Positions 14,437-40,710 of a DNA stretch of 40,710 bases are shown in pieces. The stretch comes from Bacteroidaceae bacterium (GTDB lineage: Bacteria; Bacteroidota; Bacteroidia; Bacteroidales; Bacteroidaceae), in contig JAFZWQ010000015.1 in the NCBI GenBank assembly GCA_017617235.1, positions 1 through 40,710 on the forward strand, written 5' to 3'. Position numbers and translations under genes: made by a program. How positions within the stretch are numbered: the first letter of the stretch is position 1; each line of letters opens with the position of its first letter. Below the pieces are notes generated by a model. That model ran no database searches. It had not been told where the DNA came from and was given only the letters and a program-made list of their open reading frames with translations.

Positions 14437-14448
14437 CAAAATGGGTAT

Positions 14449-14515
14449 AAAAAAAGAAGGTTGTCTCACGACAACCAATCTTTCATTAACCTTAAATCTA
14501 ATACCATGAAAAACA
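14449..14515 (-). ncRNA. Candidate small RNA with its own promoter and terminator
   Basis: On the minus strand a -7 box TACCTTTG (14522-14529) is followed about 7 bases later by a predicted transcript of some 67 nt. The transcript ends in a textbook terminator: GGTTGTC/GACAACC stem with a 4-base loop (14459-14476), TTC and seven T. It contains the segment CATGGTATTAGATTTAAGG before the terminator. No open frame of useful size fits. Promoter, short body and terminator fit descriptions of conserved Bacteroidales small RNAs such as the Bacteroidales-1 motif. I cannot confirm which family, if any, it belongs to. Confidence 0.65.
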
Positions 14516-14521
14516 CTAATG

Positions 14522-35843: not shown

Positions 35844-36806
35844 TTAACGGATACACGATGTTGACAATGAAGATATTCGTTTGCTCAGTAATTGATGATA
35901 GTCGGCCTTCATCTTATCGGGAAGGAATGATTGGTCAATGAGATTATTCCATTGAGGTAAGTAGGCCTTCATTCGCCCTATCATTTTCTCTGCCACCGTG
36001 GCAGGAATACCGCTCTGGGTAAAGGCTGTGATGAAGGTGTTGCGGTTGAACCCGTTTTTCTCGCCCCCCACCGCAAAACTCATTGCCATCTCCTCAGTAT
36101 CTTGAGGGTCGGCCAGCAGCACGGCCAGCAGATCGTAGGCTGGCGATAGCACATATTCTCCCCCTCCGCTATCTAACAGAGAAAAGTTCTTGCAGTGCAT
36201 ATCGGAGTTTCCTGTAATCCATGAGAATAAAACGATTTCCCAGAATCGCTGCACATCCAACATAGGGGCCGACGAGTACTTCTTGATGGTTTCTGCCAGT
36301 TGCTGGTAGGTGCCGTAGTACTTATGCTCGGTGAGTCGGTTGGTTAGCTGACACATATCGAGCATGGATATTTTTTCTCCACTATGCCCACGATCCATTC
36401 TTCGAGTAAGATACCCCAGTTCGCCGTCGGCCAGGCGGATGAGCGTATGACGGGCGGTGCGGATATGGGCAGCCTCGGCCATTTTCATCGTCAAGTCCTC
36501 CAGTTCGGGCAGGCAGGGGTATTGTGCACTCTGCGGCTTGAAGATGTATTTACCCCACAGACCTACGATGGTAAACTTTGAAGGCTCGTTCTTCCCGCCA
36601 CGGTTTACGTCCAGCGACATCTTAGCCTGCACACCAGTTACCGACGCACTGGTGCGGATAACCTGACGGGCAAGTTCCGACATGTTGTCTCGCGTGTAAG
36701 GAAGAATTGGCGCCGTATCGCTGCCGAAGAACTTACGCGCACAGCCTGGATGAAAGTCCACCTGACCATCCTCCAACTCTTGATAACAGTACAAACACTT
36801 ACTCAT
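35844..36806 (-). CDS. HipT-like kinase toxin (C-terminal HipA domain) with N-terminal zinc finger
   Basis: A 320-residue HipA-fold Ser/Thr kinase lacking the N-terminal HipA subdomain, which is encoded separately upstream. Residues 4-22 form CX2C-X11-HX2C (C4, C7, H19, C22), a likely zinc finger. The glycine-rich loop is TGVQAKMS (57-64). It is preceded by S53-A54-S55, in the place of the autophosphorylated SxS motif described for HipT. The catalytic loop GNSDMHCKNFSLL (199-211) has D202 and N207, and the metal-binding aspartate D225 is in SPAYDLLA. All core residues are present, so it should be active. Known HipA and HipT phosphorylate aminoacyl-tRNA synthetases (GltX, TrpS); the target here is unknown. 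It overlaps the hipS-like gene by 8 bases. Confidence 0.88.
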   Translation of the reverse strand: MSKCLYCYQELEDGQVDFHPGCARKFFGSDTAPILPYTRDNMSELARQVIRTSASVTGVQAKMSLDVNRGGKNEPSKFTIVGLWGKYIFKPQSAQYPCLPELEDLTMKMAEAAHIRTARHTLIRLADGELGYLTRRMDRGHSGEKISMLDMCQLTNRLTEHKYYGTYQQLAETIKKYSSAPMLDVQRFWEIVLFSWITGNSDMHCKNFSLLDSGGGEYVLSPAYDLLAVLLADPQDTEEMAMSFAVGGEKNGFNRNTFITAFTQSGIPATVAEKMIGRMKAYLPQWNNLIDQSFLPDKMKADYHQLLSKRISSLSTSCIR

Positions 36807-37122
36807 AGTCCAATGGTTTTACGCTGATGTTTCCGATACAATCCTTGCAGCAAGCCATCAAGAGCGACATCCTGTCGCGTGGGTCTATTTTCCACGACGA
36901 TGATGCGATGTCCAAGAGCCAGCCCTCAGGGATGAGTCCATCGAATACGGGAAACATCATCTCTTTATCGTACTGCTGGGCAGTCAACGGTATCGTTGGA
37001 CTTACAGGGGCAGCATCCGAACGGGTAAGATACGCCTCGTCATACACAAAATGGAATCCCTCTTCGTCTTCTGTAAGGATGCCACAGTAGATGTCGTTTA
37101 CATAGATTCCTGCCTGTTTCAT
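36799..37122 (-). CDS. HipS-like protein (separate HipA N-terminal domain)
   Basis: A 107-residue protein matching the N-terminal subdomain of HipA: MKQAGIYVNDIYCGILTEDE, then FVYDEAYLTRSDAAPVSPTIPL, then MFPVFDGLIPEGWLL (each a piece of the conserved fold). In the three-gene HipBST systems this piece is the separate HipS subunit and acts as the antitoxin. It is translationally linked on both sides: ATGA overlap with the HTH gene before it and an 8-base overlap with the kinase after it. Confidence 0.88.
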   Translation of the reverse strand: MKQAGIYVNDIYCGILTEDEEGFHFVYDEAYLTRSDAAPVSPTIPLTAQQYDKEMMFPVFDGLIPEGWLLDIASSSWKIDPRDRMSLLMACCKDCIGNISVKPLDYE

Positions 37123-37322
37123 ACGATGTCACGTTTTACGGGTGCAAGGCATTCGCCAAACAGGGCCAGCACATCATTTACCTTATCCATTCTCAATGTC
37201 TGCTTACCTTGTTCAAGTTCTCTTACAAACCTGAGTCCTACCCCGGACCTCTCCGCCAATTCAACTTGAGAAAGCCCGTTCTTCTTCCGTTTTTGCTTAA
37301 TATATTCCGATAGCGTCATCAT
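37119..37322 (-). CDS. HipB-like HTH repressor
   Basis: A 67-residue Xre/Cro-type regulator. The helix-turn-helix lies at about 17-44 (LSQVELAERSGVGLRFVREL). The C-terminal ALFGECLAPVKRDIV is short. First gene of the hip operon, with its start 14 bases or so after the predicted transcription start. It should bind the three TATACC-N6-GGTATA dyads upstream and repress the operon. ATG at 37322 or the next codon 37319. Confidence 0.9.
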   Translation of the reverse strand: MMTLSEYIKQKRKKNGLSQVELAERSGVGLRFVRELEQGKQTLRMDKVNDVLALFGECLAPVKRDIV

Positions 37323-37431: not shown

Positions 37432-37476
37432 TAGCCTTTCCTCATTCCCGCTGACGCGCCTATTGTAGCCTTTTTT
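37432..37476 (-). repeat. Diverged intergenic copy of the pyrG insertion element
   Basis: In plus orientation CATTCCCG (37443-37450) and GTAGCCTTT (37465-37473) flank GACGCGCCTA. They correspond in order to the ends and middle of the 36-bp element found twice in pyrG. TAGCCTTTC (37432-37440), just before CATTCCCG, equals the end of a further unit, so two units may have been in tandem. It starts 9 bases after the asnB stop. Confidence 0.6.
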
Positions 37477-39213: not shown

Positions 39214-40710
39214 TTAGTTATTTATACAGGCCTTGATGAAGCTCATAAACAGTGGGTGTGGATTAAGTACGGTCGATGAGTACTCTGGGTGGAACTGGGT
39301 TCCTATGTACCATCTCTTCTCAGGTATCTCAACGATCTCTACCAGGTTGGCGGCTGGGTTTATGCCCACGCACTTCATTCCGTTCTTCTCGAACTCCTCC
39401 TGATACTTGTTGTTGAACTCATAGCGATGGCGATGGCGCTCCTTGATGAGCGCCATTCCCGACGTTCCGTCGCCTACCCGTAGCCTTTCTTTGTCGTAAG
39501 CCTCGTAGACGCGACTGTCCTTCAGCAGCTCGCACTCGTAGGCGCCCAGTCGCATGGTACCACCCATCTGGGTGATGTTCTTCTGCTCCTCCATCATGTC
39601 GATAACGTTGTGTGGAGTCTTCTCGTCCATCTCAGCACTGTTGGCGTCCTTGTAGCCCAATACGTTGCGAGCGAATTCTATCACCATCATCTGCATACCG
39701 AGGCAGATGCCGAAGGTGGGGATGTCGTGTGTGCGAGTGTATTCGGCTGCGATAATCTTGCCTTCGATACCACGCTGACCAAAGCCTGGACAAACAACGA
39801 TGCCCTGTAAACCGTCCAGTTTCTCTGCAACATTCTGCTTGGTTATCTCCTCGCTGTTCACGAAGTGCAGCTTGGCCTTCACATCGTTGTAGATGCCAGC
39901 CAGATTCAAGCTCTCGCGAATGCTCTTGTAGGCATCCTGCAGGTCGTATTTTCCTACCAGTCCGATGTGTACCTCGCGTGTGGCATTGCGCTGCTTGGCC
40001 AGAAAGTCGTGCCAGCCCTTCATGGCAGGAGTCATTCCCGACGTGCCGTCGCCTACCCGTAGCCTTTCGCCTACGGGGATACCTATCTTGCGCATGATGG
40101 CAGCGTCCAGGCCTTGCTTCTGCATGTTCACCGGCACCTCGTAGATGCTGGGCATATCCTCGCTCTGCACCACACACTCCAGGTCAACGTTGCAGAACGA
40201 TGCCACCTTCATCCGCATCGAATCGTCCAGATGGCGCTCTGTGCGCAGCACCAGTATATCGGGCTGTATTCCCATGCCCTGCAGCTCCTTCACGCTGTGC
40301 TGCGTGGGCTTGGTCTTCAGCTCGTCGGCAGCTTTTAAGTAAGGTACGTACGTAAGGTGTACGCAGACAGCTTTCCTGCCCAGCTCCCAGCGCAACTGTC
40401 GAATGGCCTCCATGAATGGCGCACTCTCAATGTCGCCGATGGTACCGCCCACCTCTGTAATGACGAAGTCAAAAGCCTCCCCCTGTTCATCTTCTCTCAG
40501 CATCCTCCGTTTTATCTCGTCGGTGATGTGTGGCACCACCTGAATCGTCTTTCCCAGGTAGTCGCCGTGGCGCTCGCGATCTATCACCGTCTTGTAGATG
40601 CGACCGGTTGTTATAGAGTTGTTTCGTGTGGTGTGTATGCCTGTAAAGCGCTCGTAGTGACCCAGATCCAAGTCGGTCTCAAACCCATCCTCAGTCACGT
40701 AGCACTCGCC
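39214..40710 (-). CDS. pyrG: CTP synthase (5' truncated by the window edge), with two inserted elements
   Basis: The last 498 residues of the enzyme that makes CTP from UTP, ATP and glutamine. The visible synthase part has EDGFETDLDLGHYERF and GGTIGDIES. The glutaminase domain has the nucleophile in FGICLGMQ and the histidine/glutamate in GTQFHPEYSS. Two foreign in-frame inserts break conserved stretches. ERLRVGDGTSGM follows IPVG before TPAMKGW in the linker between the domains. The same 12 residues lie between AYDK and ALIKERHRHRYEF, next to the conserved RHRHRYE motif. Both come from a 36-bp repeat. The core motifs are intact, so the enzyme is probably active. The start is outside the window. 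Confidence 0.95.
   Translation of the reverse strand, partial: GECYVTEDGFETDLDLGHYERFTGIHTTRNNSITTGRIYKTVIDRERHGDYLGKTIQVVPHITDEIKRRMLREDEQGEAFDFVITEVGGTIGDIESAPFMEAIRQLRWELGRKAVCVHLTYVPYLKAADELKTKPTQHSVKELQGMGIQPDILVLRTERHLDDSMRMKVASFCNVDLECVVQSEDMPSIYEVPVNMQKQGLDAAIMRKIGIPVGERLRVGDGTSGMTPAMKGWHDFLAKQRNATREVHIGLVGKYDLQDAYKSIRESLNLAGIYNDVKAKLHFVNSEEITKQNVAEKLDGLQGIVVCPGFGQRGIEGKIIAAEYTRTHDIPTFGICLGMQMMVIEFARNVLGYKDANSAEMDEKTPHNVIDMMEEQKNITQMGGTMRLGAYECELLKDSRVYEAYDKERLRVGDGTSGMALIKERHRHRYEFNNKYQEEFEKNGMKCVGINPAANLVEIVEIPEKRWYIGTQFHPEYSSTVLNPHPLFMSFIKACINN
39454..39489 (-). repeat. 36-bp in-frame insertion element in pyrG, copy 2
   Basis: On the minus strand it begins GAAAGGCTACGGGTAGGCGA and ends ACGTCGGGAATG, encoding ERLRVGDGTSGM. 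It differs from copy 1 at one position of 36. It contains two small inverted repeats: CTAC-GG-GTAG and CGACG-NNN-CGTCG. Confidence 0.9.
40033..40068 (-). repeat. 36-bp in-frame insertion element in pyrG, copy 1
   Basis: Same 36 bases as 39454-39489 except one, in the same reading frame. The preceding host bases GTAGGCGA resemble an internal part of the element, so the exact insertion boundary on that side is ambiguous by three bases. Confidence 0.9.

Follow-up and report, generated by a model that had tools for sequence, protein, structure and literature searches.

A short, probably mobile DNA repeat of rumen Prevotella and related Bacteroidales lies twice, in frame, in the CTP synthase gene pyrG

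Introduction

How does a gene that is taken to be essential come to hold the same short piece of DNA twice, in frame and without losing its reading? The question is raised by pyrG at one end of a 40,710-nt stretch of DNA from a Bacteroidaceae bacterium, the whole of which is called the window here. Working from the sequence of the window alone, an initial annotation had proposed that a 36-nt element was inserted at two places in this gene, likened it to the Rickettsia palindromic elements, and named a simple intragenic duplication as the alternative. Rickettsia provides the best-known examples of in-frame "protein-coding palindromes", and various other bacteria those of intragenic REPs. In the present case, such in-frame repeats are found in common gut Bacteroidales and in housekeeping enzymes, and since many genomes of this group are available, the insertion target, the filter on reading phase and the tolerance of protein loops become measurable. 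Two questions are thereby made testable, namely which agent mobilises elements this small, and whether invasion by repeats supplies conserved proteins with new loops. There is also a practical side, as PyrG or AsnB proteins of odd length in such assemblies are not necessarily errors.

Results

Two copies in pyrG of the source genome

The minus strand carries two 36-nt stretches, 39454-39489 and 40033-40068, that agree at 35 of 36 positions, as had been claimed; a scan of the window with the repeat recovered both of them, at 0 and 1 mismatch, and 100 shuffles returned no match. Both translate as ERLRVGDGTSGM inside a single open frame, that of pyrG, which has 498 codons and is truncated by the end of the contig; this bears out the reading of an in-frame repeat with a common peptide. 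The features are collected in Table 1; site A is presumably the linker joining the synthase and amidotransferase domains of CTP synthase. A third copy, with one mismatch, lies on contig C11 (70001-70033) of the source genome (2.54 Mb in 50 contigs, 85.5% complete); it too is in frame, within a 581-residue ORF in which it reads ERLQVGDDTSGM.

Table 1. Features of the window that bear on the repeat
Feature	Coordinates	Strand	Remarks
pyrG, CTP synthase	39214..40710	-	ORF, 498 codons in window, 5' end cut by contig edge; phmmer against solved CTP synthases, best 9kao, 1.6e-138
33-nt element copy 1 (CGGAACG hairpin)	39455..39487	-	site B, just before RHRHRYE; +11 residues
33-nt element copy 2 (CGGCACG hairpin)	40034..40066	-	site A, between IPVGE and TPAM; +11 residues
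Hairpin CGACG-gaa-CGTCG of copy 1	39460..39472	-	covariation across copies; fold
Hairpin CGACG-gca-CGTCG of copy 2	40039..40051	-	covariation across copies; fold
Possible degenerate intergenic relative (AAAGGCTAC..AGGCG..CGGGAATG, gapped)	37443..37473	-	suggestive only

A relative of the element had also been proposed between genes, at 37432-37476. When the element was aligned end to end with gaps, the best match in the window outside pyrG did fall there, scoring 27 against 24 for the next of 1573 window tiles and against a maximum of 26 in 4000 random 100-mers, none of which reached 27; we regard the match as suggestive. Elsewhere in the window, 14446-14516 (minus strand) matches the Rfam family FopS (RF04319, 84 bits), a family of paralogous Bacteroidetes sRNAs, and 35844-37322 (minus strand) carries a run of three ORFs resembling, by eye, a HipA-type pair and an XRE regulator.

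Inserted unit, ends and target

The inserted unit proved shorter than the 36 nt first given to it. It comprises 33 nt, AAGGCTACGGGTAGGCGA-N7-TCGGGAAT, and the three other bases of the repeat, GA before and G after, are the host target (GA^G). In pyrG this target is one Glu codon, GAG or GAA in relatives whose sites are empty, and the net gain at site A relative to these empty alleles is 33 nt at GA^G. Because the leading GA and the trailing G belong to the host, each insert adds 11 residues. Similarly, the element in the asnB gene of another Prevotella follows ALYR, and the asnB of the window itself reads ALYRDKGI. Flanks were counted in 132 of the 138 copies described below, six being left out as they lay near locus ends or contained N: A stands at position -1 in 99%, G at -2 in 87% and G at +1 in 74%.

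A target-site duplication was looked for in pyrG and asnB and none was found, the net gain being 33 nt at GA^G. Terminal inverted repeats are likewise lacking in the copies collected, whose ends, AAGG and GAAT, do not complement each other. Complementarity at nine possible centres of the target was 24-30%, a range obtained without a shuffled control, and gave no clear signal of a palindromic target. The spacing of the two arms appears fixed: when gaps of 8-38 were allowed across 139 genomes of the genus, a single match was returned, a tandem right half, and no other longer or cargo-bearing version was detected. By eye, copies are often nested in other repeats, for example CTCCCCTCCC...GGGGTGGGG. 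At three loci part of the element is expanded in tandem, as in repeated CCAAAGGTCGGGAAT, in a manner resembling slippage.

Hairpin structure

The initial annotation had noted two small inverted repeats in the element, and they fared differently. In a set of 89 distinct sequences at up to 5 mismatches, the variable pairs of CGANN-NNN-NNTCG were paired in 90.4% of cases against a shuffled mean of 50.7%, a level reached by none of 1000 shuffles, and only 12-38% remained paired when these positions were slid out of register. Counts over the 138 copies are 71 G-C, 54 C-G, 11 A-T and 2 others for the outer variable pair and 98 C-G, 34 G-C and 6 others for the inner one, and the bases of the loop vary freely. 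The hairpin therefore covaries. CTAC/GTAG was paired in 95.8%, the same as after shuffling, so that its pairing reflects invariance and not covariation, and the sequences had mostly been gathered with patterns that fix CTAC and GTAG, which limits this test. The element thus has a single hairpin with a stem of 5 bp; GTAG lies one base 5' of it, at positions 11-14 of 33, and is preceded by a conserved 10 nt, AAGGCTACGG. RNAfold forms the hairpin in both copies of the window and preferred another fold for the single GC-type variant tried.

Dispersal across genomes

A scan of one genome per species returned at least 120 stretches with the element. Among the 120 matches listed, the titles of 117 point to Prevotella or another group of Bacteroidales, those of three read only "uncultured bacterium", and many refer to rumen, omasum or other ruminant gut sites. 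Taken together with the matches from the genus, there were at least 144 with an exact core, which left at least 138 distinct copies, including the two of the window, after repeats with the same flanks had been removed. A copy at up to 3 mismatches was present in 41 of 139 genomes of the genus, where the reversed pattern gave none; a copy at up to 1 mismatch was present in 40 of the 399 genomes of a family sample, spread over 8 of 30 genera, with a maximum of 20 in one genome. Three records titled as isolates rather than metagenome-assembled genomes carry it as well at up to 2 mismatches, namely Prevotella sp. tf2-5 with 13 copies, and P. lacticifex and Hoylesella loescheii An865 with one each. 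The suggestion that the element is dispersed was thus upheld. Thirteen viral contig stretches of IMG/VR also carry it and might be a vehicle between hosts. In one genome of the family (contig C5, 239994-240186), two inverted copies stand 127 nt apart in a REPIN-like arrangement.

Empty sites and other inserts in PyrG of relatives

PyrG matches were obtained in 63 of 101 genus genomes searched, and 37 further stretches were fetched; the resulting alignment comprised 62 ORFs, each 300 residues or longer and a part of them incomplete, with the window's own among them. The peptide RLRVGDGTSGM occurs in the window's PyrG alone and in none of the other 61 ORFs, as far as these reach. In the closest relative, which the search put at 93% identity, site A reads IPVGETPAM and site B carries no insert. 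Nor is the 33-nt element present at the inspected sites of other relatives, some of which carry different inserts; the two best solved CTP synthases show gaps of 12 at both sites in the phmmer alignment. Each insert therefore splits a stretch that is continuous in the closest relative, as had been supposed, and the notion of an old, family-wide segment of PyrG is refuted within the sequences examined.

Altogether 41 inserts of at least 7 residues were counted in 26 of the 62 ORFs, most of them at core positions 456 (17 inserts) and 135 (14 inserts). DNA of loci without pyrG matched 25 of these 41 (23 of 39 when the two of the window are set aside), compared with 0 of 123 control pieces of pyrG. 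Three background loci that hold pyrG had been excluded from this comparison; before that, 48 of the 123 control pieces had matched because these loci contained the gene, and the count of 25 of 41 was unaffected. The two inserts of the window matched 184 loci each, which is so by construction, since the background loci had mostly been picked as carriers of the 33-nt element. Some inserts are plain repeats, for example CCCTCCCTCTATGGAGGGGAG or AGTGAAAAGTGAAA, and two further, closely similar Prevotella PyrGs carry a repeat-like insert at site B. The regions of sites A and B thus tolerate insertion and are used by several kinds of repeat; they are likely to be surface loops, and the PyrG bearing two extra loops is presumably active. 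Four PyrGs of the genus contain two or three different in-frame inserts together, each of up to 45 residues. In three genus genomes the PyrG match has an internal stop (TAA, TGA and TAG), which may be a real disruption, a wrongly drawn span or an assembly error.

In-frame copies in other genes and the phase filter

In 61 of the 138 copies an open frame runs across the element and continues for 50 codons or more to either side, or past the end of the locus. Under the same criterion, 941 of 1305 random positions in the same loci (72%) lie in an open frame, so that genes are struck less than by chance and yet are not avoided. The phase reading ERLRVGDxxSGM accounts for 36 of the 61 in-frame copies. 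The phases were compared with expectation after the element had been removed by script, using the 56 of 138 copies in frames of at least 60 codons per side (shorter at a locus end); expected numbers came from the GAG phases in 378 long ORFs, with GAG as the sole target and the longest frame taken for each copy. For the two phases that bring a stop, 2 copies were observed and 10.3 expected (p = 0.0017); the counts were 3 against 13.7 for the antisense phase, whose peptide is hydrophobic, and 33 against 20.8 for the main phase. Purifying removal of harmful inserts by selection may have caused this depletion.

Besides pyrG, the element is in frame in genes for asnB, an M18 peptidase, an Fe-ADH, GH97 and GH95. 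Solved structures are gapped at the element by 11 residues for AsnB (plus 2 nearby), 12 for the M18 aminopeptidase and 11 for Fe-ADH. The best solved GH97 is shorter there by six residues, not 11, and no clean gap was seen in the comparisons of IGPS and of a helicase of Prevotella sp. tf2-5. In the latter genome, long ORFs hold 4 of the 13 copies in frame, and the domains recognised in these ORFs are helicase, GH31, GH97 and GH95. One copy of tf2-5 lies between transporter and ABC-ATPase domains in a single open frame, perhaps through a gene fusion or a start codon provided by its AATG end. The gapped relatives and structures, the copies in many genomes and the same inserts in unrelated conserved enzymes confirm the original reading of an in-frame insertion by a dispersed element.

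Discussion

On the most probable account, pyrG of this genome has twice received a 33-nt, short, non-autonomous, mobile-like element that spreads among Prevotella of the rumen and their Bacteroidales relatives. The element enters cleanly between A and G, usually at GA^G, without duplicating its target, and a folded single strand may be what an enzyme recognises in trans. As its 33 nt make up eleven codons and the sense phase seen most often contains no stop, insertion into a gene lengthens the protein by 11 residues (RLRVGDxxSGM) and keeps the frame. Copies would persist where a loop tolerates them, and those that bring a stop into a gene or a hydrophobic peptide into a protein would be purged by selection; pyrG here would have taken two copies, at places that in the genus also accept several other dispersed repeats. 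Several findings count against this explanation: no transposase is linked to the element, copy numbers are low, not exceeding 20, two of the three copies of the source genome fall in one gene, which is unlikely under random insertion, and the gaps are unclean for the helicase and IGPS and amount to 6 for GH97.

The concentration of copies in one gene could mean that a single copy entered pyrG and that the second is a local re-insertion or a templated copy of the first. The two share their orientation and differ by one base, and we consider this history possible, though rather less likely than not having occurred. The repeated block consists of exactly the 33-nt element with its GA and G target, and the flanks are not duplicated; for this reason the simple intragenic duplication offered at the outset is rejected, as the block stops at the target bases. 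Moreover, the differing base lies in the loop, and both loop types rank among the most frequent in the 138 copies (GAA in 23; GCA in 17, as is TTT), so that two separate arrivals fit equally well. In yeast mitochondrial byps and in T4 gene 60, ribosomes skip an insert and leave the protein unchanged. A mobile element of this bypassing type would likewise be short, hairpin-bearing, placed inside genes and a multiple of three in length; bypassing does not require the depletion of stop phases, however, and the main phase reads as a normal open frame, which makes this account very improbable. An assembly artefact might be suspected in a draft metagenome genome of 50 contigs and 85.5% completeness, but the same element with the same ends recurs in many independent assemblies and in the three isolate-titled genomes, and we give an artefact slightly less credence still. 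The least credible is an ancient origin within PyrG, which has next to no chance of being right given the 61 other ORFs and the two solved enzymes.

The remaining rival concerns the mover. As GTAG adjoins the hairpin, a RAYT would be expected, and the element could be a GTAG-type REP whose hairpin, in single-stranded DNA, is the substrate on which such a Y1 (HUH) transposase acts to move it. The covarying hairpin one base from GTAG and the lack of terminal inverted repeats and of target duplication fit this idea, as do Y1_Tnp matches above the cut-off in 5 of 6 high-copy genomes and in all three isolate-titled genomes (13, 1 and 1 copies). Strong matches (E < 1e-15) occur in 26 of 139 genus genomes, and the link strengthens with copy number in post hoc comparisons (minimum of 2 copies, p = 0.06; 3, p = 0.14; 4, p = 0.04; 5, p = 0.02), such matches being found in 4 of 8 genomes with at least 4 copies versus 22 of 131 others, and in 3 of 4 with at least 5 versus 23 of 135. 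On the other hand, GTAG is internal instead of terminal, and simple presence of the element is not associated with a strong match (carriers are 10 of 26 genomes with one and 31 of 113 others, p = 0.34). No Y1_Tnp match above the cut-off was found in the source genome. Some 1.5 kb on either side, where the contig allows, was scanned at 35 Y1_Tnp loci, three of them below the family cut-off, and no copy of the element was present, the best match having 9 mismatches in 26. The flanks of seven Y1 loci were read, and in each the gene stands between inverted copies of another sequence. On balance, movement by a RAYT, which might act from a distance, is somewhat unlikely. Those seven Bacteroidales Y1_Tnp (RAYT/IS200-like) loci bear palindromes such as GTAGCCAGCC...GGCTGG, and form REPtron-like units unrelated to the 33-nt element.

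Returning to the short mobile-like element, its general kind is known; as far as our literature searches go, its family, host group, fixed length of 33 nt and target have not been described, and no Prevotella element of this kind was among their best-ranked matches. We tentatively entertain, at somewhat less than an even chance, that it represents a novel class of mobile DNA tolerated within genes of gut Bacteroidales, that is, a codon-multiple hairpin of 33 nt with an insertion chemistry of its own (A^G, no duplication, no Y1 transposase). It would then be one member of a guild of short repeats, several in number (four or more, judged by eye) and unrelated to each other, that enter essential enzymes in frame at shared positions and continually supply new loops on which protein evolution can draw.

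Among known systems, MITEs such as those described for Porphyromonas gingivalis (PMC4596501) are likewise non-autonomous repeats of Bacteroidota, from which the element differs in being shorter and in having neither terminal inverted repeats nor a target duplication. The REPs tagged by GTAG or CGTC, intragenic ones in several phyla included, are closer in the account of Di Nocera 2013 (PMC3733652): they share the small hairpin adjoining GTAG, for which 5 bp is the shortest stem given there, stem subfamilies with compensating changes as observed here, some in-frame copies and double insertions in one gene. In contrast to the GTAG-REPs of that account, the GTAG of the present element is internal, behind ten conserved nucleotides, no RAYT gene was found beside a copy, none of the 35 Y1_Tnp loci scanned is flanked by copies, and the numbers per genome stay far from the more than 100 stated as usual for REPs in PMC2817692. 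In the main text of PMC3733652, "Prevotella" is absent and "Bacteroid" appears once, for CGTC repeats. The Rickettsia palindromic elements, given as about 150 bp (Ogata 2000 and 2002, as cited in PMC10969869), are longer than the 33 nt found here, and the single 5-bp hairpin, the Bacteroidales hosts and the sharp A^G target also set the present element apart. As an analogy the initial comparison was right: in both cases a short dispersed palindrome is inserted in frame into unrelated protein genes and adds a recurrent peptide to their products.
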